From contig NZ_JAAHBQ010000001.1 in NCBI RefSeq assembly GCF_020144665.1, positions 1 through 64,000 on the forward strand: 64,000 bases of DNA. The letters run 5' to 3'. The DNA comes from Oscillatoria salina IIICB1 (GTDB lineage: Bacteria; Cyanobacteriota; Cyanobacteriia; Cyanobacteriales; SIO1D9). The position numbers and the translations under genes were made by a program. Of this stretch, positions 18,681 through 46,357 are shown one piece after another. A model generated the notes under the pieces. The model did not search any database and was not told the origin of the DNA. It saw only the letters and a list, made by a program, of their open reading frames with translations. Within the stretch, counting starts at the first letter, position 1, and every line of letters starts with the position of its first letter.

Positions 18681-19889
18681 TTAGCCACTCAAACCACCTT
18701 TCTCCAGTAAAGGTTGTAGCGTCAAAGTAATTCCATCCCCTAACTTAACTGCAAAAACTTGATAAAGTTTGTTTTGATAGGAAAATTTTTGCTGAAAAGT
18801 TTTTCCAGTTTTTATAACCTTAATAAATCCTTCTAGCCAATCTAAATTATTAGCCTTAAAAAAATCAAGGCAACTTTTTTGTGTCATTAACTGACTACTC
18901 GTTAAATTAAAGCATTCAGCAAAAGCTGGATTAACTAACAAACAACGAAAATCAGTAATTTCAGCATCAACAGGACTACGAATAGCTTCAAAAGCTGCTA
19001 TACCATGATAGCTATAATTGAGAATGCTGGCAAGAATAGAACGAGATTGATAAAGGATTTCGATAGTTTGTTGATGTTGTTTGATTTCAGCTTCGAGTTG
19101 AATTCTTTGTTTCCGGAGAGTAATTTGACAAGAAACTCTGGCTAAAACTTCTTGAAGCTCAAAAGGTTTAGTAATATAGTCACTTCCTCCTAGTTCAAAA
19201 GCTTTAATTTTATCTATTGGTTCATTTAAAGCACTAATAAAAATAACGGGTATTAAAGCCGTTTTAGCTTGCTTTTTGAGAATTTTGCAGACTTCATATC
19301 CATTAAGATTAGGCATAAGAATGTCTAACAAAATCAAATCAGGTAAAATCTTTTCAAGAGAGCGTAAAGCTATATTACCGCCATTGGCGCTGCGAACTTG
19401 ATAACCATTTTCTTTTAGTAATTTTGAGAGAATTTGCAAATTTTCTACTTGGTCATCAACAAGTAAAATTGACCCTTTATCGAGCTGACTTTCTTCTTCT
19501 TCTTCCTCTTCAAAAAAAGGTGGAGTAATTTCTTCTTCAGAAATAATTTTGCAAATTAAGTAGTGAAACTGTGATTTAGTAATCTTCTGTTGAAATACTT
19601 TCGATAAAGTTTTCCAGAGAGAAGCAGCCGAATTTCTGACATAGCCACTGCTCAAATATAAAGATTCGCCAATTTCTTCATAGGAAGATTCTTCCCAAGC
19701 ACCCTTTAAAATTGTTTCTTCTTGTAAACTTAAATGGTTATTTGTTTGCAAATAAACTTTTTTTTGGACAAATTCTAAGGCTTCTTCAAAGGTGATTTTT
19801 TCCTTTTCCATAAGACTTTTGATTTTTCTTTGATGCTCTCTAAAAATCTTGTTGATACTATTTGCTTCTGTAAAAATACCGATCGGCAA
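18681..19889 (-). CDS. Response regulator with N-terminal vMAP-type HTH, REC and PAS-like domains
   Basis: 402 residues. Residues 30-115 (TFEEALEFV..., YEEIGESLYLSSGYVRNSAASLW) match the HTH-like N-terminal domain of cyanobacterial vWA-MoxR-associated proteins. A run of seven Glu (127-133) links it to a receiver domain at 140-255 with acidic pair D145/D146, phosphorylation site D189 (LILLDILMP), S219 and K241. A short coiled coil and a PAS-like domain (about 285-395) end the protein; there is no effector DNA-binding domain at the C-terminus and no kinase. The start is TTG at 19889, preceded by AGGA 8 nt upstream; an ATG at 19811 is possible but has no such site. It is divergent from the giant adhesin gene, so it is a candidate regulator of it (inference). 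Confidence 0.8.
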   Translation of the reverse strand: MPIGIFTEANSINKIFREHQRKIKSLMEKEKITFEEALEFVQKKVYLQTNNHLSLQEETILKGAWEESSYEEIGESLYLSSGYVRNSAASLWKTLSKVFQQKITKSQFHYLICKIISEEEITPPFFEEEEEEESQLDKGSILLVDDQVENLQILSKLLKENGYQVRSANGGNIALRSLEKILPDLILLDILMPNLNGYEVCKILKKQAKTALIPVIFISALNEPIDKIKAFELGGSDYITKPFELQEVLARVSCQITLRKQRIQLEAEIKQHQQTIEILYQSRSILASILNYSYHGIAAFEAIRSPVDAEITDFRCLLVNPAFAECFNLTSSQLMTQKSCLDFFKANNLDWLEGFIKVIKTGKTFQQKFSYQNKLYQVFAVKLGDGITLTLQPLLEKGGLSG

Positions 19890-19960
19890 GGGTGTGTTTC
19901 CTACTTTTTCAGTGAATACTCGGAAAAAGAAAATATTTTCCTGAAATTAGACCGTAAAAA

Positions 19961-20039
19961 ATGACAAAAGTGATTAATAAAACCCAAGATAGATGACAAA
20001 TATGACAAATTTAGAGAAATGAACTGGGTACTCTATAAG
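19961..20039 (+). promoter_or_regulatory. Three ATGACAAA repeats and a possible promoter before the giant gene
   Basis: ATGACAAA occurs exactly at 19961-19968, 19993-20000 and 20002-20009. It is followed by TTAGAG (20011-20016), a 17-bp spacer and TATAAG (20034-20039), a plausible -35/-10 pair. The repeats could be an operator for a regulator in this divergent gap (19890-20344). The rest of the gap holds the DUF4347 relic. Confidence 0.4.
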
Positions 20040-20076
20040 TAGAGGTTTAATTTTCACTTGTTTTGAGGCAGTCTCC

Positions 20077-20329
20077 ATGACTTCTAGTGTTTTTCTCGAC
20101 TCCCAAATTCTAGATTATCAGCAACTTGCAGAAAACGTTACTCCCAATAGCGAGTTTGTCATCTTCGACACCACCCAAGATGGCGTAGCCCAGATTACCC
20201 AGGTTTTGACGGCGCGGAGTAACTTAAGAAGGTATTCAGATTGTCTCTCATGGTAACGAAGGATGGTTACTTTTGGGAAGACAGCATTTAAACTTCAACA
20301 TAGAAAATATCGCCCTAAAATCTGTTTAA
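20077..20329 (+). pseudogene. Broken N-terminal DUF4347 domain, frameshifted and truncated
   Basis: From ATG 20077 the frame reads about 50 residues typical of the start of DUF4347 (VFLDSQILDYQQLAENV, then FDTTQDGVAQITQVLTARSN) before an out-of-frame end at TAA 20254. Shifting by +1 near 20225-20231 restores the DUF4347 continuation GIQIVSHGNEGWLLLG, which then stops at TAA 20327. That second frame is the frame of the giant gene starting at 20345. Thus one frameshift and one stop separate this head from the giant protein. The domain is also about half its usual length. DUF4347 normally begins giant cadherin/FG-GAP/DUF4114-type proteins of cyanobacteria. Interpreted as the decayed original N-terminus; a small independent fragment is less likely. 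Confidence 0.7.
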
Positions 20330-20344
20330 TTAAGAGTAAAAATT

Positions 20345-23300
20345 ATGGAAATCATTAATCCAAACTTGAATATAGACAGTAATTTTTTGTCTTCCTTAAA
20401 TAGAATCAATACCGCCCTAAACGGCAGCGAGCAAACCGACACAATTACTGGAGGAATTAACCGAGGTCAAGACAATGTATATAGATTCCTCAAAGGTGAA
20501 GGGTTACACTTGCCAAGCTCTGGAACAACAAGCTACTCTTTAGAACTAATATTTAAATTTGATGAAACTAACGGCTATCGTAAAATACTCGATTTTGCAG
20601 GCAGAACTCAAGATACAGGATTATATGTATATAACCAACAAATAAGATTTTATAACGTTAGTGGTGCTACAGGCGGAACTGTCAATTCTGGTGAATATAA
20701 CCATCTCATCTTAACCCGTTCCAACGATAACACCGTAGTAGCTTATTTGAATGGTCAACAAATTTTTTCATTTAATGACAGCAGTAATCTCGCCGTTATT
20801 AATGCCAGTGACGGATTAAATATTTTTATAGAAGACACACTTCAAGGAACTGAACAATCAGCCGGACATTTAGATCTATTAAGTTTTTGGTCAAGTAACA
20901 CTTTATCATCTACACAAACTTTACATCGCTATAACTCACTGCAAGATTCCTCTATTGCTCCTAGTGTAAATATTACTTCAGATCGAAGTGAATTAAATAG
21001 TGGAGAAACCGCAACAATAACCTTTACTTTCTCGAAAGAAATTACCGATTTCGATCTTAATGATATCACCGTAACAGGCGGAACAATTTCCAACTTAACT
21101 GGGATTGGAGGTACAATTACCGCATCAGGAGAAAATGCCCTAGCTGGAGAGGGAAAAGAAGAAGCATTCGATCGAAATTCAAATACGAAATGGTTGACTT
21201 TTAGCAACACAGGCTGGTTACAATATGAATTTGAAACTCCAGCAGTCGTAACAGACTATCATTTAACCTCCGCCAATGACGAACCAGCAAGAGATCCGAA
21301 AGATTGGCAATTACAAGGTTCTAATGATGGCGTAAATTTTGTCAATCTAGAGAGTCAAACTAATCAGAATTTTGACACCAGACTAGAAACAAAAAGCTTC
21401 CATATTCCTAGTACTAATCAACAAGCGTATCAATATTATCGCTTAAATATAACTGCAAATCATGGTCTAGATTCATACGGTGATGCAACTCTTCAGTTAG
21501 CAGAATTACAATTAGAATATGATAGCATCTACACCGCCACATTTACTCCAGAAGAAGATAGCCAAACCACAGCCAATATTCAAGTAGGAAGCGATTATTT
21601 TGACCTCTCAGGAAATCCAGGAACGTCTCAGAGTATCACCATTGACATCGACACAGACGAAATAGACGAGACAGCACCAACTCTGACAATAACGTCAGAT
21701 AAGAGTGAATTAAGCAGTGGAGAAACCGCAACAATAACCTTTACTTTCTCCGAAGAAGTTAGCGAATTTGACAGTAGCGATATCACCGTAACTGGGGGCA
21801 CATTAGGAACAGTTTCAACCAGCGATAATCAAATCTACACCGCCACATTTACTCCAGAAGAAAATAGCAAAATTACTGGAACTATTCAAGTAGGAAGCGA
21901 TTATTTTGACCTCTTAGGAAATCCAGGAACGTCTCAGAGTATCACCATTGACATCGACACAGACGAGACAGCACCTACTTTAGTCATCACTTCAGATAAG
22001 AGTGAATTAAGCAGTGGAGAAACCGCAACAATAACCTTTACTTTTTCTGAAAAAATTACCGATTTCGATCTTAATGACATCACGGTAACAGGCGGAACAA
22101 TTTCCAACTTAACTGGTGGGATTGGAGGTACAATTACCGCATCAGGAGAAAACGCCTCTCAAGAGGGAAAAGAAGAAGCCTTCGATCAAAGTTCAAGCAC
22201 CAAATGGTTGACTTTTAGCAACACAGGCTGGTTACAATATGAATTTGATAGTCCAGTAGTCGTAACCGACTATAATTTAACCTCCGCCAATGACGAACCA
22301 TCAAGAGATCCGAAAGATTGGCAATTACAAGGTTCTAATGACGGAGTAAGTTTTGTTAATCTAGAGAGTCAAACTAATCAGAATTTTGACACGAGACTAG
22401 AGACAAAAAGCTACAATATTCCTAGTGCTAATCAACAAGCATATAAATATTATCGCTTAAATATAACTGCAAATCATGGTCTAGATTCATACGATAATTC
22501 AATTCTTCAGTTAGCAGAATTAGAATTAGTATATGATAGCATTTACACGGCGACATTTACCCCAGAAGAAGATAGCAAAATTACTGGAACTGTTGAAGTA
22601 GCAGGGACTTACAGGGATTTATCAGGTAACACAGGAACAAGTATCACGTTCAATGATTTGAGTATTGATACCAGAAATCCCCAACTAACTATTAATCCGA
22701 TTAGTGAGAATGATAGCCTCAACTTAAGAGAATCTTCTCAAGATTTAATTATTTCAGGTACGGCTATAGCTTTGGATGGAGAAATAGTTACAGTTAACCT
22801 TAATGGTAAAGAATATACTAGCGAGGTTATCGACGATCGCTGGACTGTTGTGATTCCAGTTGAAGATGTTGAGATTATAACTGAAACAGACAAACAAGTT
22901 TTTCAAGTAAATGCAGAAGTTGGCTTGGGTTCAGTTAATTTAACTCAATTCAAAAATCTCGAAGTATCTAAAAATCCTCCAGTTTTCAATCCCACTAATC
23001 CTCAGTTACCAACTATTACTGAAGATGAAACTACTCATCAAGGTAAAAAAATCTCTGAATTGCTCGATACAGAAAACTTAGGTATAGTAATCATTGAAGC
23101 TAATAATAATAATGGAAGTTGGCAATATACTTTATATGATTCTGAACCTTTTGCATTTACTATAAATGATGATGGTTCACAAACTCCTATTTTTCCTGGT
23201 TGGAGAGATTTACCTTTAATATCAGAAGAACAAGGACTTTTGTTAGGAGCAAATCATCGCTTGCGCTTTGTTCCTAACCAGGAAAATGGTGGTGAAGCTA

Positions 23301-44300: not shown

Positions 44301-46357
44301 TTGCTCAAACTTTACAATCAATCGCTACTGTACTCAATCAAACGGTTGTCAATCAAGAGCAAACTCTTCAGGAACGTTTGCTTACTCTGACAGCACAAAT
44401 TATTGAGCAACATCTCCAAGAACAAATCTTACCTTCACTAGAAAATTCTGACCAAATATCAACAATTACATCTCAGTTTAATTGGCTTGCTACTCAACTG
44501 CAAAATATCTATCAAAAGCTAGTTAAAAATCCTGATGAGTTGTTAGCTTTGTCAACAGATGAGGTTTTAGCTAGCTTCAATGACATCACATCTTTTAAAT
44601 CTCTCCTAAAATCTGATTTACCTTCTAATATTAACCTGATCGAACAAAGCCTCATCACTCTTGAAGAGGCAACTGCTCAGATCGATGATTTGCTTACAGA
44701 TGATACAGTTACTAACACCCCACCTGTAGCAGTAGATGACAATTTCACCGTTAATGAAGATAGCACAAACAACATCTTAGAAGTCTTAAATAATGACAGC
44801 GATGCTGACTCAGACACCCTGACAATTACGGCTGTAACTGAAGGTAATAACGGTGGAGAAATTGCCATCAGCAATGACAATCAAACCTTAATTTACACCC
44901 CAGCAGCTAACTTCAACGGTACCGAAACCTTCACCTACACAATTGATGATGGTAGCGGCACAACTGCCCAAGCATCAGTAGAAATTACCGTTACTCCTGA
45001 ATTAACAACCAACACCCCACCTGTAGCAGTAGATGACAATTTCACCGTCAATGAAGATAGCACAAACAACATCTTAGAAGTCTTAAATAATGACAGCGAT
45101 CCTGACTCAGACACCCTGACAATCACGGCTGTAACTGAAGGTAATAACGGTGGAGAAATTACCATCAGTAACGACAATCAAACCTTAATTTACACCCCAG
45201 CAGCTAACTTCAACGGTACCGAAACCTTCACCTACACAATTGATGATGGTAGCGGCACAACTGCCCAAGCATCAGTAGAAATTACCGTCAATAATCTTCC
45301 CGATACACCAACATTAAAAGAAGAAGCAACTTCCGGTATTTTCACCCTCGAAGACTTACCAGCAGATTTGTTCTTCTCCTTAAACAGTAATAATCAATTC
45401 ACCCAAGTAAGCGAAATTGGAGTCTTTACTGTTGACAACGAACAAGGAACCATTAATAATCTTTCTCTCGGAACATCTGGTTATCAAGAAGCTGCATTAG
45501 AAAACTCGAAAGTTATTTTCTCAATGTTGCCAGATTCTCATCTACCTAATGGCTTAACTTTGGCAGATATTGAGCGAATTTTACCTTTAGATGAAGATAC
45601 CAGTTTCGGTTTCTATCTGCTGAAAGAAAATAGCACTCAAGCTGTTTTTAAAGAGATGCAGGAAAATGGCAATAGCGATGAGGAAATTATCCTTTCTAAC
45701 TCTTCATTATTCCAAACAGAAGTTCAAACCGACGGTAGTTGGATTCTTAGCTGGACAGATGAATTGAACGCCATGACGGTTGATTTGCAAGTGCAACAAC
45801 AACAACCAATCACAATTGGTACTCAATTGCAAAACGAGCAAGGTTTAGAGGTAATTGATTTATCCGGTGAAAGTAATTCTTTAACAGTAGAAGTTACTAT
45901 TCACCGCGAAGCAGCAGTGGATAATATAGTTAGCTTGTATAAAGTTCAAGCTGATGGTAGTGTTACTGACCCTCTGACAGGTGAAACAATTACTGCAACT
46001 TCAGAAAATCAATCTCGTTATATTCGTGCAGCTTTAGCTAATCGAGTGGAAGGGTTAGATATTTCTAGTAGTAATCAAACTGAAACTATTCTTTCTGGGG
46101 AGTTAGAAGCTGGGGAAATTTATGCACCGATGATTATTTTTGACCCAGCAAAACAGGTTAATGCTAATTTAGCTAATCCCGATATTTGGTTGGAAGATGT
46201 TGAGGTTTATTTCCCGTGGATGGAAGTTAATTCTGATGGTTACGACCACATTCGTTTATTAGGAGATAATCATTTTGGTTTTGAAGATTTACCTGCTGGT
46301 GGAGATCGCGATTTTAATGATTTAATTGTTAAAGTTGATTTGTCACCAGTTGACTAG
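20345..46357 (+). CDS. Giant 8670-residue multidomain adhesin/matrix protein with C-terminal DUF4114
   Basis: One uninterrupted frame of 8670 codons (roughly 0.95 MDa at 110 Da per residue). Approximate domain order in residues: LamG-like 46-199; three Ig-like (Big_12 type) units 205-775, two carrying an inserted F5/8 type C domain; a further Ig-like unit 779-879; five cadherin/tandem-95-like WQYS units 879-1779; degenerate RTX repeats 1796-1892; bulb-lectin-like and roughly 115-residue modules 1916-3550, with a second LamG near 3330-3630; an F5/8C near 3737-3848; Calx-beta-like segments with a third LamG 4342-4550; C-type-lectin-like 4589-4716; FG-GAP-like 4759-4999; a second C-type-lectin-like domain 5449-5569; Calx-beta-like and unassigned 5570-7430; EF-hand/dockerin-like loops 7435-7872; two near-identical cadherin-like repeats 8124-8316; DUF4114 at the end. 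No N-terminal signal peptide or sortase/PEP-CTERM anchor is visible, so type I secretion is likely (inference). The start ATG has only a weak AAGAG 6 nt upstream. Confidence 0.85.
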   Translation: MEIINPNLNIDSNFLSSLNRINTALNGSEQTDTITGGINRGQDNVYRFLKGEGLHLPSSGTTSYSLELIFKFDETNGYRKILDFAGRTQDTGLYVYNQQIRFYNVSGATGGTVNSGEYNHLILTRSNDNTVVAYLNGQQIFSFNDSSNLAVINASDGLNIFIEDTLQGTEQSAGHLDLLSFWSSNTLSSTQTLHRYNSLQDSSIAPSVNITSDRSELNSGETATITFTFSKEITDFDLNDITVTGGTISNLTGIGGTITASGENALAGEGKEEAFDRNSNTKWLTFSNTGWLQYEFETPAVVTDYHLTSANDEPARDPKDWQLQGSNDGVNFVNLESQTNQNFDTRLETKSFHIPSTNQQAYQYYRLNITANHGLDSYGDATLQLAELQLEYDSIYTATFTPEEDSQTTANIQVGSDYFDLSGNPGTSQSITIDIDTDEIDETAPTLTITSDKSELSSGETATITFTFSEEVSEFDSSDITVTGGTLGTVSTSDNQIYTATFTPEENSKITGTIQVGSDYFDLLGNPGTSQSITIDIDTDETAPTLVITSDKSELSSGETATITFTFSEKITDFDLNDITVTGGTISNLTGGIGGTITASGENASQEGKEEAFDQSSSTKWLTFSNTGWLQYEFDSPVVVTDYNLTSANDEPSRDPKDWQLQGSNDGVSFVNLESQTNQNFDTRLETKSYNIPSANQQAYKYYRLNITANHGLDSYDNSILQLAELELVYDSIYTATFTPEEDSKITGTVEVAGTYRDLSGNTGTSITFNDLSIDTRNPQLTINPISENDSLNLRESSQDLIISGTAIALDGEIVTVNLNGKEYTSEVIDDRWTVVIPVEDVEIITETDKQVFQVNAEVGLGSVNLTQFKNLEVSKNPPVFNPTNPQLPTITEDETTHQGKKISELLDTENLGIVIIEANNNNGSWQYTLYDSEPFAFTINDDGSQTPIFPGWRDLPLISEEQGLLLGANHRLRFVPNQENGGEASLRYRAWDRFGLGEPGEQVDARIDNENTNFSPETDTIEIEITSVNDAPQLKLDVDLETIEENDIAPENGRNLSEVFGIAIADPDNGSSLEGFAVVGFGAVGQEMDSSQGKWQYSLDGLNWLDINLRDIDRKPTEIDNKQELSYEIYNLQNEIRQLNNNYYGRSSDFNWQDKLRKLIENNVADREFIDGFVENTVGTSYLRKTEYVYNPYLGRSYEETRYVEVTQVDEYKFNNYLYNQLADLLEAGTISQKFLDELKALEVFNDQTYNRLSNLAGEYYDRSHKEALALNPFTQIRFLPANNFTGKPLQMLVTVLDNSYTGGFTSAQGEKTIDINQWKPTSYFAFEPSAVGVEVVNVNDAPSFDNVGELAAINEDSLAAEIVGETIANLFSDKFVDADPGDTLSGILIVSNPNNSEQGEWQYSTDDGRNWLKVGTVDDLENALALDIFTKIRFVPVSNFSGAVDGLEVRALDSTYDEGFTQGSDRYFIDSRLNGNESAIAGETQLLQTTIKPQNDRPVLQTTNNKSLTAITEDDLDNLGTRVGDLIANKIKDADINDPQGIAITSANNQNGQWQYRLSSTSTWRNIGTVSDNSSLRLSENAYIRFLPDGKNGTTTTLKYRAYVSSDTDRLSGTKSTNLTQEQSLRDAVSEAEQTVTLKVNSLNDPPRLANSKTLATPANWRNPAGQTLESLFASQFSDLDLGASFKGIVVSDNFAQTLQGSWQYSVDNGSNWIDIIANPERSLVLSRQTKIRFLPLLSFTGTPGNLKIRALDNTYTGEFSQTDRQIYLDTTNLEPTSPVSDSVDLSSGYVPRQAVDLLGTNNSDILNNVGGKSVSALAGNDTLRYQPTSSFTTIDGGTGSDVLEINDNWENYEVKFEHNRITIKHKSTQQTRIVANNVEKIKFNDHEITGLRYELKLLNNAAEEIYQDKDQLSANKSIRLLPSNSRLKAGDVFTSPNGEYSLSLQNGVLVFSSAEKQIWSSGLDLGATEVRLETNGYLVFYDREGDTVSKIFTGGGEKGQLFISNEGVFGVSDRQGKITHLFPQILELGETITSPSGKYEFGVTSLFGSIIFYLSNLENNQLQWGKIIASDTSNENTKIRAALKASGELVVERLERVPQPENSIPKLETETLWSSKIASGNTSLGLPSLIVTDTGNFGIWRPDVAKYFSIPESIEATFSNLDLEQVSLPFTKAVGPNNVFYSTTTHKAGSYRAEINFHLADDKTSGAINPNEIIDWQVILYNSNNESYILTPENATLTYGFLDEDTDFDDNGNIVRTKNLITDGLVIENNRIYIQQRGYSGSSFEEPQIEFKSNDGKYGFLLGITSWFNATAERKITFNGSSQTTQLPKINNSRDDNQVYFTSQRSSQSLDILDVGETLKAGEYELKLTEEKLQLSNSQGEVWSYNPAVNSIGKARTYTTNLSSSGIISPNREYQVYLDAEGDLVIGKGDRNRYTFRKETNKYTAEGWLEIPIAQVSGIFGVDLPLDWKVKLINKSTGQFFELTPSNAKLSTTTDWPFGNSDRFLEIVDNGKNINFKPEFGGRALNWKANNGNYELNLNDTGTFWNDLDIAIKYAGVTDTKNAQPSDFATLDPNFEPYNIVETTRLWNEGEYQQSTQLVVENGDLVVKDAQDRTLATLKETEGSEVYFALDDDGKLELLQKSATGYISDVTIAPDTGKLVLPKSDRQRFVFSQEVNDHLAEGWFEIPIVRTSGAISQAEILDWDIKIVDKSDFSYFTLTPKNSDFTGNNLAIFDNGTNVKLTKGNAISWRSNNGNYEFYFHFTDNFFADKDVNINVKYAGQDSVASYDANYFQENLDLGTKLSLTDSGVTNLVQISKLNYISDSLIEQFYAPEATKKISKVDLDSFGNLVFFNQDGNKLSLIESGNDEKGAFALALDQYGNVSVVNAYRNTLTKPLHKGTEENSLLLMPDSEISDSEISQLTVTSPRTVWDKNQVGKVQIKLYENWESGKTEYFTDEPVKVAYEILLRSENPLPLTAQVKDINYLGATAAEVNSNTDANRSGIAITQLQKFDRGIWQYSPDGKTWRNIGNVSDSNALFLGADSYLRFVPESNEYYPSNLSFRYKLWRENASLVGKYGSLNSANVADEYQQGAIADEGFLTNKLRFRRINPENGEARDNNNNLLEYAIANVVVIPSGSSTAEIDILPLVDTIQEQVQTVDVRIKSIDWVNQGDTLVSGYLYQEGDINQEYVLLPVDDSGDRLQITIADSGLFDAGLQITDEYGFPVKGELKLNHQEGEPTVFYIALTSRPAHDVEVKVNNNLTLTFSSDRDTWDRPQKVTLTNQKAGSTTNITVASLDPFYDALGSNIIKLVDTSRVLQVAEPVSLRLGKDVALQLPDNLELQGNYAIQFWLKPESPDGVILRSDSGELRLENGIFKGTERWNFVSSEATQLSLNKWNKIALIEDNQNLILYLNGEKVSDGKVSNRVYELNYETDSYQAVGTMRIDASRLSGGILAQEILSWEITLAHKATGNKIELNSNNARLIYGNNSLQLTGDRLVLNTAIPYVSVEWRSQDNQNRFAFGKTSSFSSASNNLLIKYQGNSQTKTIADNTVFTTRITEDNSGVVDPLQVEQFGDLSNRGITGYLSRVEFWDNLKPFNSAYLATLAARYNLDEGSGEIANNQGTSTSLEDAQILIAKSSLSEAIWQAGFSPAEREYLSILSEEEKQFLLVDRNNDLPTVNVNVPENSQQVEEGTNTTAVFAITLDKPAPEGGIFVPYVLRNPQVISTLTESTLVTSEAKWAIAQASGSIQLEFAPETNYIVTSYQITANSSDRSQDVTSWRLLGSQDGINYTELDTRTQETFADRNAVNTYQISENNTAYRFYLLEATDNNGGSQIQLGNLQLFSFNNPETNLPTEITQQPYNVRIANNLLSENSTSEWTKPDVTIANVNSTSQAQLNSNSSEPLQQQQLALGQDISIKLGETIFSGIYIPEGSRQGQITLRSLDDNRAERNQKYELQIIGDGDPEATRFKAGGEQLGELIVRDADRKGVELLTLDRDYQYNAELDQLILVDSLVTAESVFTSEKSTPSLEIRFSPDVQLWQELQLKNIEIRLSGQEELGLTEGNQILDDLDSFAILNIRADYAGKNITGTLVLTDLNDQVTTQPFSLELNPSQELADYNLLRSAIIDSSDTVSSRQDNFDLGRLLTTATGDNLPLRSHLKTWDSYLYVRLKSAPQNPDSQIVIDLQASQGLGGTQEIELSTQQITFAAKNWQQPVLVGVRGINDIYADPAQQGVITAELNQDLTTDTAYLLGYESAAVDYLNLANPETIRDFTDIDLDALANENDSEPLSSLRVKWNPSPTYTRVIEEGNKANIILEAAAATGILKGRVALGITNPQSVLRLDGEKDYLSLNKPLQLGETYSLQFHLRLKESEQINRMLLASQDDNLQVWINEQRRLEVRIKTTQGETKIVASSLAIPLDESRLTIAVAEKSLVLYLNGINVGTIALATQESFSPVKLTHFFGSPAITDDNPENIESEFSLQPYGGLAYGIRVWDRAIAAETELASWASSIPENLPISNSNLVANFELNKSNRLDFFNSVTTNPLQLSVTTPIEVFDYATPSPSGLVSSRLYDNLLTLNYNVEGVEIAESFQGVRFGTRFFFLTPVADNWSELEAIAQRYGGSLAVIDTPELNNFLAENLADQENVAIGLRADGNWISGGRIDELAYRWQNSLELEDTLETATQPGYVLSAQGNWELAGTEQIKGIVEIALPSPTEILAGKNLVEEEALPEKDFQLPLGTLYKGGKANQFPLSGNRYIGDRVAIAAADFNNDSQPDLLVFSEKNGGQLFLNNSTLTEIQFQRDREALINLKNIQPALNGREFQLIDLNEDSLVDLVWNDGEKIVWLENQLSNNQAFGTETQPVTLIDNTVAPGIDFTQANFELIVENNLTSLLVTDRGSIRLFQPESNLTSNWQEIQGNQNPFSELILPADLELSLRSVDSDRDGLLDLYVFARSNDLTAIDSGFIRYFEQTEEGTYQDRTFSDELTKRLPAIGNLESIAFLDNQNQGLDAVTLSYNVGRYEFGRLQDINDQLTFDFTGANSEADLSQILEVYSIDDQIAEGDERLTLRLLATEDFALGEEVERTVDLIISDNDESGINVEWYSGDRASAQTLVSHNRDREITQLDLREGIDNGGFFTVSLASQPSKNVTVNTVSSNSETFRLERIYPFKINFALDGTLEISSRLPNSGDDYLLKFRSDLIASVTDNNDGVYQVLLKPEVTAQLKAELDTLIAHERIFQLITDNGIDLIDLSESEKLLAALGYIFLPEFQQFLQETVLNQGSSVEILQSVTAIQDIFEQIRIDVETNDPTYRIGGSLNANQLFSERITTVSSDNLAFNFTTLNWEQKIFVRPVATEDLSDNTEQTSPNLLISTSSLDNQYNALDLLKVPVQIADNDRAEVIINNFQDIREGVDGQFEVTLASQPNGEVTITLTPENIRGLTPNAATGLPSHSYTLIEETMTWQQAQQRAWELGGHLVSINSQAEQDFLVENFGSQVTEGFWIGLHRQNWLQWDNGETVDYGYWQQGEPSFTDYNEHFAYVNAQDNFTWHDGNSELSLPFIVELDDPDRQDLSLNNKYFGQTIELTFDETNWNLPQQVTVRPQDNPYYEGSRESFVYFDVASTDPSYDQFAVDPVSVQIRDNDVPVAKTFTVLDAAEPGQIGFFGLKLDTDQVRDRQGLKIYYRVKGIPYTIQDQLGNSFDYDTNLGEDFQSYVDLTPSGENYVTIAPGQDLGNVVIFPIDDFIAEGVPDQRIEEITKNQLSQLNLFANFPLDTFTLSTGDKRSTINGDSLELNREGELLINGVKRDEGIFKVQFERNQGSPLLKVYKTDNPEKSDNGSAEPRRFEQVILELLPDPNVAEPSYRLTDFNTSASVRIWDDDKVGFRFILPGDRANTDPDQKGELKVVESADLSDIQQTSGASFLVRPLSDPDDKYIHLRFSPQWKDHLKHEFKFQLKEQPNLLAGEAEFRINLALGDLNQEKLVIPQAIIDNLREAGEIVDPIFENGQIKGISITRTKDNWAKPFSFVLTPEDEQGIVTEERYLQRQSGSSRFTTYAQFLTSVLEQTKEVLISYTDKIDTVEISDPSDRNQGTAVDITTALPIQGIYQPGTRLDRGEAWLSEDRRVALSLEASSANETKLVLNHLRTEPNSQGFYQVEKSEVLRTVAGDKSFLSFKPDGRLVLIESKNVTETIKFNQFDDRIQSLDSLVNSEVLSQFAPLESFSFNRYNYQGSKTTLSKGEQLRLVGNVSDSQQFEFELDIAGNLSVRRGQTLKAIATNVSQVNFSSSGVSVIRESIKEAWSPQPTYDNFDATYFAVQNNGEIALYTQGGEKPYQKQLAGVQEEMVAADPRAVVFTQKLPDVPVVFQNDDANNPRLDGAYFDTSNWSRYQKITVAAASDELIDIARSLKVNLNVEGEPLYAVKFDNAESPLVLTIDDPHFEKNTIISSFAEPLGDNEQVLNQAEIPLIGDASGKLPNFSEAFGQKFKESLEKNEKIDASNVTAAVTQALVASFGGGELNQLGKEGLFGVQGLSVNADWQFGTLLLNVTFQKNFLPFVTELGADLGLPEFGLELDGQLKGYLGGKISLSPAIRITNPSITAKNPENKTVQTGAEEPSRWQQITQTIKNALNGPEYDLEVTEETGKQGVLNRFQLNTSEDENGNPATGLELYLNLDFEELGLQSTLFPLQLNASQKSIEEFVLGSDGDEIIIELKDNLLNQIGNADLVVRGLRYTGEPENRSNAKDWDYQQISLSNPGQINVEGIITIPNATIKSQGEIRLPLRPKTAYNIDKIELYLGDSSNSQSTPQLLESILIPSSILNGSSTTAELPSYEITRISTQTNNFLGFVPLDNGNEQFERFNEQYGFLNELAKNPSDASKFVGASDAVLSELTAGDDYNEARLELAVPITKPKETNLRFYRKYPFDIKIDDVTERTYSTSDLSSISLNFNKHKQVNLSLALDDIVDNSELQDFYVEMVYLPSFAAKDLPNSDKVEQGKTDEEKIYTLLQQDTFGTPTTIYNVGYTTPQVNPEESENQPWNKQLPLHTKIINSQDVNTGKPVSNSALVDSATHLIRLADLNGLVLNLDSSEFLKSKSGNDAIVNNPSHFDDFVIRIIKKIDENTALIGKEGDRLGTKILSGRANPNDPNSPVYNNGPFEVLYEIRPFGSFKKVNLVKDYIRVNVDNPDTQGEYRIIPLYDVDDFNIEQNSDGSFKSVSAKNADRSKLTDKLLHIVSPPTIPTLVFENAQPDLIKIVGPDGKPQTNSLGTPLDFVHLPTANFWVREQNNNGTLKLNLDEYYIAADGEPLRKALVPFSQLTNTAQIQPRVTGQFATAFDVTTGFPADLPTPSLEFDLGLFGYVNKNLINRETNVKPDGKAFAVGVNDLSLNLGTFVTDLLKPVIDSVDEIFVNTGVYQVIDLLDTDTQFLESIGIAGLFDTNKDDKVSVLELLEAGNNLGAALSSLQKGKQVAPSQLISTIVKFADLVKQFREVANNEGLEELIVGLYDQYTKAFGDVAQKPNTSGQNPTTTEANTSAIDTNDKTLQRQNALDLDESSNQSGNSDNAKITDQAPAQKGLFEKLANIGLSIPVLDDPLLVLDLIFGEDIDLVKFKPFPQKQQYFLHTELKKGLPEPLDFLSVGVEGNLLAGVDLSFGFDTYGLRQFETGEHGDNFLKLLDSFYLQDWTDSSYGSGNIVDKPELFLNLEAGAKGEASLKVFGIEVASGEIGGGLGASLNLDLDEFGEHKEERNQDADGKIRISDWQKQGANIFDFYGDLYVYFKAVAEAFGITLLNEKWKYPFYEFRLSNSVDIAGKSTQAYIEGATIFFDRNFNLSLDEDEPFTLTKADGSYDLNLNPVEYDLDGDGELTIADGQVVSLGGLDTESNLPITAPMISEPTATITSPLTTLGVTLSLREGGSTESRLNQVKEIFGIPAEVDLNSFDAIAAAKSGDPLGLIVYQAHVVVDSLLTNLTNISALYSQSDDDSTLFAQTLQSIATVLNQTVVNQEQTLQERLLTLTAQIIEQHLQEQILPSLENSDQISTITSQFNWLATQLQNIYQKLVKNPDELLALSTDEVLASFNDITSFKSLLKSDLPSNINLIEQSLITLEEATAQIDDLLTDDTVTNTPPVAVDDNFTVNEDSTNNILEVLNNDSDADSDTLTITAVTEGNNGGEIAISNDNQTLIYTPAANFNGTETFTYTIDDGSGTTAQASVEITVTPELTTNTPPVAVDDNFTVNEDSTNNILEVLNNDSDPDSDTLTITAVTEGNNGGEITISNDNQTLIYTPAANFNGTETFTYTIDDGSGTTAQASVEITVNNLPDTPTLKEEATSGIFTLEDLPADLFFSLNSNNQFTQVSEIGVFTVDNEQGTINNLSLGTSGYQEAALENSKVIFSMLPDSHLPNGLTLADIERILPLDEDTSFGFYLLKENSTQAVFKEMQENGNSDEEIILSNSSLFQTEVQTDGSWILSWTDELNAMTVDLQVQQQQPITIGTQLQNEQGLEVIDLSGESNSLTVEVTIHREAAVDNIVSLYKVQADGSVTDPLTGETITATSENQSRYIRAALANRVEGLDISSSNQTETILSGELEAGEIYAPMIIFDPAKQVNANLANPDIWLEDVEVYFPWMEVNSDGYDHIRLLGDNHFGFEDLPAGGDRDFNDLIVKVDLSPVD
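20959..22680 (+). repeat. Three Ig-like units, two with inserted F5/8C domain (inside the giant gene)
   Basis: The DNA block agtggagaaaccgcaacaat recurs at 20999, 21716 and 22013. The middle unit (297 bp, 99 residues) is an uninterrupted Ig-like domain ending IYTATFTPEE...SKITG. The first and third carry about 140 extra residues (about 21110-21520 and 22120-22535) reading as a discoidin/F5/8C carbohydrate-binding domain (TKWLTFSNTGWLQYEF, DPKDWQLQGSNDG, YYRLNITANHGLDSY). The two long copies are about 85% identical by eye, so the block arose by recent segmental duplication. Confidence 0.8.
22980..25680 (+). repeat. Five WQYS-type cadherin-like units (inside the giant gene)
   Basis: Units share ITEDD...DL, a G-x-WQY-S/T-x-D-G-x-x-W core (near 23119, 23629, 24551, 25009 and 25457) and an I-R-F-x-P strand. 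A sixth copy lies alone near 29290-29560. The second unit carries a polar alpha-helical insertion of about 150 residues (23696-24150). They resemble tandem-95/cadherin-like repeats of secreted bacterial giant proteins. Confidence 0.7.
25731..26020 (+). other. Degenerate RTX calcium-binding segment (inside the giant gene)
   Basis: LLGTNNSDILNNVGG, ALAGNDTLRY and IDGGTGSDVLEIND follow the G-G-x-G-x-D-x-L pattern, then a strand KIKFNDHEI like the end of hemolysin-type repeat domains. It supports Ca-dependent folding after type I secretion, although only three or four repeats are present and they are internal rather than C-terminal. Confidence 0.7.
26905..30980 (+). repeat. Four copies of an unnamed roughly 115-residue module (inside the giant gene)
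   Basis: Copies begin near 26905, 27676, 28379 and 30655. Each has a start of the type A-E-G-W-x-E-I, then S-G-x-I...E-I-x-D-W-x-I, a middle x-L-T-P-x-N-A strand, and an ending W-x-S-N-N-G-x-Y-x-F...I-x-V-K-Y-A-G. Between them lie bulb-lectin-like strands (SPNGEYSLSLQNGVLVF; SGELVVERL). The fourth copy is nested inside the second LamG domain. I do not recognise a named family; the pattern resembles beta-sandwich segments of PEP-CTERM-type exported proteins. Confidence 0.6.
30330..31240 (+). other. Second LamG/concanavalin-like domain, interrupted (inside the giant gene)
   Basis: DNLELQGNYAIQFWLKPES, LSLNKWNKIALIEDNQ and LILYLNGEKVSDG are the front strands of a LamG domain. The closing strands (GYLSRVEFWDNLKPF) come only after the nested unnamed module, at about 31100. 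Possible polysaccharide-binding module. Confidence 0.65.
31555..31890 (+). other. Third F5/8C (discoidin-like) domain (inside the giant gene)
   Basis: IVTSYQITANSSDRSQDVTS, WRLLGSQDGINYTELDTRT and YRFYLLEATDNNGG repeat the pattern of the two earlier discoidin-like insertions but are much diverged. It is again embedded in a beta-rich domain that starts with a Calx-beta-like strand (TAVFAITLDKPAPEGG). Confidence 0.6.
33370..33990 (+). other. Third LamG-like domain (inside the giant gene)
   Basis: VLRLDGEKDYLSLNKPLQLG, YSLQFHLRLKES, LVLYLNGINVGTIAL and GGLAYGIRVWDRAI give the ordered strands of a LamG/concanavalin-A-like fold, inserted after a Calx-beta-like start (VIEEGNKANIILEAAAATG). Confidence 0.65.
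34110..34490 (+). other. C-type-lectin-like domain 1 (inside the giant gene)
   Basis: The strand FGTRFFFLTPVADNWSELEA, then AQRYGGSLAVIDTPELNNFL, AIGLRADGNWISGG and LAYRWQNS follow the C-type lectin pattern (W..A...C/G-G-L-x-x-I). It lacks the cysteine pairs, as is common in bacterial forms. Confidence 0.6.
34620..35340 (+). other. FG-GAP/VCBS-like segment (inside the giant gene)
   Basis: AIAAADFNNDSQPDLLVFSE, FQLIDLNEDSLVDLVWND and LRSVDSDRDGLLDLYVFAR are three Ca-binding D-x-N/D-x-D-x-x-x-D-L blades spaced as in FG-GAP/VCBS beta-propellers. Confidence 0.7.
36690..37050 (+). other. C-type-lectin-like domain 2 (inside the giant gene)
   Basis: The best-preserved lectin-like module: MTWQQAQQRAWELGGHLVSI, EGFWIGLHRQN, WDNGETVDYGYWQQGEPS and NFTWHDGNSELSLPFIVEL. 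The W-x-D-G-x-x...L-P-F-I-V-E closing strand fits C-type lectins. It sits inside a Calx-beta-like domain whose halves flank it (EVTITLTPEN before; FDETNWNLPQQVTVRPQDN after). Confidence 0.75.
42649..43960 (+). other. Three EF-hand/dockerin-like calcium loops (inside the giant gene)
   Basis: FDTNKDDKVSVLELLEAG (near 42649), NQDADGKIRISDW (near 43588) and YDLDGDGELTIADGQ (near 43915) carry the D-x-D/N-x-D-G-x-I/V-x-x-x-D/E loop. They are spread over about 1.3 kb and separated by Gly-rich beta segments, so they probably stabilise the fold rather than act as a dockerin pair. Confidence 0.6.
44714..45291 (+). repeat. Two near-identical 297-bp cadherin-like repeats (inside the giant gene)
   Basis: Units start at 44714 and 45011 (aacaccccacctgtagcagt), giving a 297-bp, 99-residue period. 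Only a handful of bases differ over about 280 bp (for example gctgac/cctgac and attgcc/attacc). The protein pattern, PPVAVDDNFTVNEDSTNNIL...NDSD-x-DSDTLTIT, is the Cadherin/Big_9 tandem type with DxND-style Ca sites. Recent duplication or gene conversion. Confidence 0.85.
46090..46354 (+). other. C-terminal DUF4114 domain (inside the giant gene)
   Basis: The protein ends with VYFPWMEVNSDGYDHIRLLG, then FGFEDLPAGGDRDFNDLIVK, the G-G-D-x-D-F-N-D signature of DUF4114, a domain found at the C-termini of large secreted cyanobacterial and planctomycete proteins. The stop is 8 bp from the convergent hpsP-like stop. Confidence 0.85.

Follow-up and report, generated by a model that had tools for sequence, protein, structure and literature searches.

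The window analysed here, a stretch of 64,000 nucleotides of Oscillatoria salina IIICB1, holds a giant surface-protein gene and, directly ahead of it, a short reading frame that resembles the beginning of a DUF4347 domain. The question that this locus raises is whether the giant gene once carried that domain as its N-terminal head and, if so, how the head was lost. The features on which the argument depends are as follows.

18681-19889, minus strand: divergent response-regulator gene, the upstream limit of the intergenic region
20065-20068: GAGG, a plausible ribosome-binding site read from the sequence, 8 nt ahead of ATG 20077
20077-20256, plus strand: ORF of 59 codons, ATG to TAA (frame 1, stop codon at 20254-20256), whose first ~50 codons cover the initial third of the DUF4347 profile (2-48)
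20225-20231, plus strand: point at which the DUF4347 match switches from frame 1 to frame 2, placed by profile matches in two frames
20228-20326, plus strand: frame-2 continuation, with DUF4347 profile 49-70 at 20231-20296 and then NIENIALKSV
20327-20329, plus strand: TAA closing the frame-2 remnant; the putative deletion junction lies here or nearby
20332-20336, plus strand: AAGAG, weakly ribosome-binding-site-like, read from the sequence, 8 nt ahead of the giant ATG
20345-46357, plus strand: giant ORF of 8,670 aa with LamG, Big_12, F5/8 type C, C-type lectin and cadherin-like domains and a C-terminal DUF4114
20351-20947, plus strand: intact N-terminal LamG module of the giant (domain search, alignment)
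46103-46342, plus strand: DUF4114 domain at the giant C-terminus (domain search)

The Pfam DUF4347 profile (PF14252, 164 positions, curated cut-off 24.6 bits) matched the ORF that starts at ATG 20077 over positions 2-48 in frame 1 (E 1.8e-10, 41.2 bits), and a six-frame search of the complete genome that was not directed at this ORF picked it up as well (E 8.0e-9, 37.3 bits). Frame 2, which from 20228 reads EGIQIVSHGNEGW..., continues the match over positions 49-70, a piece that taken on its own gave E 0.0058 with the Pfam profile and 1.5e-6 with a profile built in the present analysis. Because the two pieces adjoin exactly at 48|49 without a gap, chance is excluded, and the same junction places the frame change at approximately 20225-20231. 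The giant ORF is read in the same frame as the frame-2 part of the remnant, and just the TAA and five codons (~18 nt up to the giant ATG) lie between the two. The first-pass annotation of this DNA had read the first ~50 codons as the start of DUF4347, had placed a frame shift near 20225-20231, and had noted that the second frame is that of the giant gene and reaches it through TAA 20327; all of this is borne out by the profile matches.

That annotation had also taken one frameshift and one stop to be the whole lesion, which falls short, as about half of the domain is deleted. The DUF4347 match in the remnant runs out at position ~70, or at most ~85 if NIENIALKSV is counted, since this segment can be aligned to a helix of the paralogue C95 (NLANYALEIKSW). 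Positions ~71/85-164, about 80-95 residues that include the invariant cysteine, are absent, and a domain search of the 8,670-aa ORF detected no DUF4347 match within the giant protein. The remnant has kept the histidine motif SHG and lost the GC cysteine motif, and so does not have the His55/Cys98 pair of the intact domain; it scores over the PF14252 cut-off but does not form the full 164-position domain in one open frame. Because the cysteine-bearing C-terminal half is gone, we regard it as a deletion remnant and not merely as a domain with a frameshift and a stop; with at least ~80 residues deleted, mending both would still yield no DUF4347 domain. Programmed frameshifting was considered and rejected, as the shift gives just an 83-residue product that has no cysteine half and is stopped by TAA 20327.

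A profile built from 29 intact domains gave the remnant, joined across its two frames, a score of 77.2 bits over 68 residues; the intact heads of the paralogues C11 and C95 in the same genome scored 81.5 and 84.3 bits over 74 residues, each with themselves excluded from the profile. Since the protein-level sequence of the remnant is little eroded compared with these intact heads, the break is probably recent. Searches of 60 relatives by DNA and of 389 genomes by protein and profile, and one contig scan with the giant N-terminus, yielded neither a close relative that would date the break nor an orthologue of the giant carrying a DUF4347 head. A DNA search with 19850-20700 recovered no orthologous locus in the 60 relatives, the single match being a chance one of 25 bases. 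Searching the organism's own genome with 19890-20345 returned the self match only, so that the genome contains neither another DNA copy nor a recent duplicate of the head region.

Translation of the giant appears to begin at ATG 20345, which would give a headless and otherwise intact surface protein. The 389 genomes, all of the same order, contained two homologues of its LamG module, which share 43% identity with it across giant residues 3-201, and because their alignment begins at giant residue ~3 (INPxxxxDxNFxSSxN), ATG 20345 coincides with a module boundary. Ahead of the LamG homologue in G250 stands an N-terminal head of another kind, marked by an IEEIGH-like motif, and ahead of that in G350 a leader of ~50 residues; no DUF4347 was found in either LamG protein, nor any trace of it upstream. 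The codons preceding ATG 20345, VKIMEIINP, were compared with the linker before LamG in G250, VEQNSVINP, and this likeness is too short to use.

Two further observations concern the modules and heads of these giants. The Big_12 and F5/8 type C modules are duplicated internally, residues 201-400 recurring at 21959-22558 with 84% identity, and this pattern suggests a recent module duplication within the giant over 20945-22558. A second type of N-terminal head occurs on giant surface proteins, L048 (G000:C2) and L077 (G250:C12), with the motif E-E-I-G-H ... D-E-G-x-I-F-A-x-L-V; it is common to C2, another giant of this genome, and to the closest LamG homologue, and from its motif it looks like a minimal metallopeptidase-like domain.

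We then consider how the giant compares with proteins that begin with DUF4347 and end with DUF4114. Both domains occur in one ORF in 8 ORFs among roughly 100 DUF4347 heads (complete hit lists for 12 genomes), namely two of three intact heads in this genome, three of eight heads in G027 and three of nine in G051, with no such ORF in the remaining nine genomes. In a set of named genomes with 78 DUF4347 loci, two intact ORFs end in DUF4114 (L129 from Dendronalium and L141 from Nostoc), and L142 from Calothrix sp. PCC 7716 would be a third case had no element been inserted into it; counts made with the local DUF4114 profile, built from just two sequences, are rough. The layout does exist, as a local feature of some lineages, and is uncommon elsewhere; the earlier description of DUF4347 as a domain that often starts DUF4114-ending proteins overstates frequencies of 8 ORFs in about 100 heads, confined to three of 12 genomes, and of two intact loci and one split locus in 78. 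The two examples in this genome, C95 (4,121 aa) and C11 (1,908 aa), are like the giant large surface proteins with a DUF4114 end, but differ from it in having a complete in-frame DUF4347 head that is followed by modules other than LamG. The giant itself has the C-terminal DUF4114, whereas a complete in-frame N-terminal DUF4347 is missing, the remnant being truncated and outside the ORF. LamG was found within the first 600 residues after DUF4347 at 7 of 65 loci, and lies ~49 aa downstream of DUF4347 in the five Nitrospirota-labelled loci examined (L101, L104, L110, L114 and L116).

Proteins with no head are the norm among DUF4114 proteins here, the majority of the DUF4114 ORFs in this genome having no DUF4347. 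One of them, C56 (1,963 aa), begins MATFNPTTTEEL and ends in DUF4114; its start aligns to C95 directly after the DUF4347 of the latter (49% identity over ~230 residues) and its C-terminus to that of C95 (41% over ~360 residues). Like the giant, C56 starts at a module boundary with no DUF4347 and has DUF4114 at its end; unlike at the giant locus, no trace of DUF4347 was found upstream of it. Because a headless protein matches both ends of a DUF4347-headed one, we consider head loss to be ordinary. Type I secreted giant adhesins are exported through a C-terminal signal, and the giant may use this route. The first-pass annotation had suggested that the loss may affect secretion or processing; the comparison does not support the former, as this genome has many headless proteins that share the C-terminal domain of the giant, and an export defect is not indicated. 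The processing of the giant could have been changed.

Broken DUF4347 heads are found in other genomes as well. Two in G023 are broken at a C-rich tract, two lie in G004 and one in G073 is broken at a poly-A tract, and stops within heads occur in G001, G004 and G129. In total the 12-genome census has roughly 9 broken heads in about 100, and the set of named genomes has 3 in about 80; because the genomes are mostly drafts, we claim no breakage rate from these counts. There are also orphan stubs with no giant gene in frame after them, L109 (profile 1-79, beside an unrelated gene) and L166 (1-51), and a degenerate head, L070 in G019 (1-85), upstream of headless beta-helix genes. In the complete genome of Calothrix sp. 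PCC 7716, the DUF4347 at L142 (10006-12544) is split at profile 85/86 by an insertion of ~2 kb whose opposite strand encodes a 534-aa ORF, presumably a transposase, and the downstream ORF of 979 aa has a DUF4114-like motif at its end. This resembles the giant locus in having a broken DUF4347 ahead of an ORF that ends in a DUF4114-like motif, and differs in that the break is due to an inserted element and both halves of DUF4347 survive.

Two of these cases have features of their own. In the paralogues L056 (G023:C176) and L057 (G023:C67) one and the same C-rich tract, near profile 83-91, is the site of the break, and long open frames follow; these breaks could be repeat-length (phase) variation. 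At L109 (10001-10405), the DUF4347 stub adjoins a palindromic repeat and the tail of the unrelated ORF, which looks Tex-like, an arrangement that may be a sign of repeat-mediated rearrangement.

The nature of the head was approached through a structure model of the intact DUF4347 (mean pLDDT 97). The best structural match of this model is Tce1 of Pseudomonas aeruginosa (PDB 9QPE, Z 12.7, 143 residues, 3.0 A), followed by SAVED-CHAT (Z 8.5) and then by TPR-CHAT, caspases, the C11 peptidase and legumains at Z 6-7; as the caspase, legumain and C11 matches are weak alone, the fold argument is based on Tce1, CHAT and conserved residues. Among 48 intact sequences, Cys98 is invariant and His55 is at least 90% conserved (A3 numbering). 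The model has a caspase-like fold with the His/Cys pair after two core strands, strands 47-53 and 87-96 coming closely before His55 and Cys98 respectively, and the HG and YGC motifs of DUF4347 align with Tce1. On the model, the predicted fold of intact DUF4347 is accordingly that of a clan-CD (caspase/legumain-like) cysteine peptidase carrying a His/Cys dyad. In Tce1, His186/Cys240 is a proposed cysteine-protease dyad patterned on autoprocessing cysteine-protease domains, and the protease activity of Tce1 is itself putative (PMC13323088). Tce1 (PA0256) is like the DUF4347 heads as a family member of solved fold with aligned HG and YGC motifs, and unlike them in being a secreted T6SS cargo, not the head of a giant surface protein (PMC13323088). 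The model likewise resembles the clan CD peptidases (caspases, legumain, C11, CHAT) in its fold and His/Cys placement, unlike the remnant in the window, which keeps the His and has no Cys half. Given the Tce1/CHAT-like fold, the conservation of His55 and Cys98 and the shared HG and YGC motifs, it can reasonably be inferred that DUF4347 in cyanobacteria forms a head that is protease-like and perhaps self-processing. Other literature consulted that names DUF4347 does so in passing.

Taken together, we favor the explanation, with a probability of roughly 0.6, that the giant gene lost an N-terminal DUF4347 head by internal deletion followed by decay of the frame, and is now translated from 20345. 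The ancestral gene would have been laid out DUF4347-LamG-...-DUF4114, and an internal deletion would have fused the first ~80 DUF4347 residues to the LamG start, with loss of the cysteine-bearing part. What was left of DUF4347 would afterwards have been cut off by a one-base shift in frame and by the TAA, leaving the giant to be translated from ATG 20345 at the LamG boundary. The part lost would probably have been a protease-like or self-processing head and not an export signal. This reading is supported because the remnant shares the frame of the giant (an agreement with a one-in-three likelihood by coincidence), because C95 and C11 are fused to DUF4347, and because LamG follows DUF4347 elsewhere; it is weakened because the nearest LamG relatives have other N-termini and because orphan truncated heads exist. 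The earlier proposal that the giant had lost its original N-terminus is thus likely in view of the decayed DUF4347 head in its frame, and short of proven, as no orthologue was found and the nearest LamG relatives differ.

An unlikely but serious alternative is that the remnant derives from a DUF4347 gene distinct from the giant, either a standalone one or part of a different surface protein, that stood or arrived upstream and had its 3' part deleted up to the start of the giant. The giant would then never have had this head and would always have started at ATG 20345 or close to it. Orphan truncated heads (L109, L166, L070) are known elsewhere, standalone DUF4347 ORFs of ~184 aa occur among the matches listed (G019:C6, G086:C18, G068:C31), LamG relatives of the giant without DUF4347 exist, and the giant has its own ATG with the weak AAGAG; against this, the ~18 nt from the remnant to the giant ATG leave no intergenic region, no consensus promoter was found in a promoter/terminator scan, strand and frame agree with those of the giant, and the two paralogues of the same genome are fused. 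It is very improbable that the break is a sequencing or assembly error in a strain that truly has a continuous DUF4347-giant fusion. Although the genome is a draft of 163 contigs, a base-calling error could account for the one-base shift in frame, and some of the other breaks fall at a homopolymer or low-complexity tract (poly-A in G073, a C-rich repeat in G023), no small error explains the absence of ~80-95 domain residues. The domain search of the giant did not recover the missing half, and the genome offers no further DNA copy of the head region with which it could be mis-joined. A simple sequencing error is strongly disfavored because a deletion of at least ~80 residues belongs to the event. 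The least probable explanation is that the 59-codon ORF now serves as a regulatory leader that controls how much of the giant is made, either as an upstream ORF or through translational coupling. Its start context is good, with the GAGG 8 nt ahead of its ATG, and it stops ~90 nt ahead of the giant ATG on the same strand, but the promoter/terminator scan detected neither a terminator-like element nor a consensus promoter, and the ORF reads as ordinary DUF4347 with nothing seemingly conserved for regulation.

A broader idea, which we regard as doubtful, is that the DUF4347 heads on giant surface proteins of cyanobacteria are caspase-like self-processing modules that have been switched off repeatedly in evolution, leaving working headless proteins, and that the window records one such event. 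Frameshifts, stops, an inserted element and deletions, often in or near a variable loop at ~80-94, would be the routes of this switching off.

For the organism, the start of the giant surface-protein gene is corrected, the protein being taken to begin at 20345 with no DUF4347 head. For the family, DUF4347 in cyanobacteria is given a concrete reading, modeled as a cysteine-peptidase fold of clan-CD-like type in which a His/Cys pair is conserved. On the lost-head explanation that we prefer, head loss in the giant gene is ordinary gene decay, the loss of an optional head, and because the head is optional its role can be tested by comparing headed and headless paralogues in one strain.
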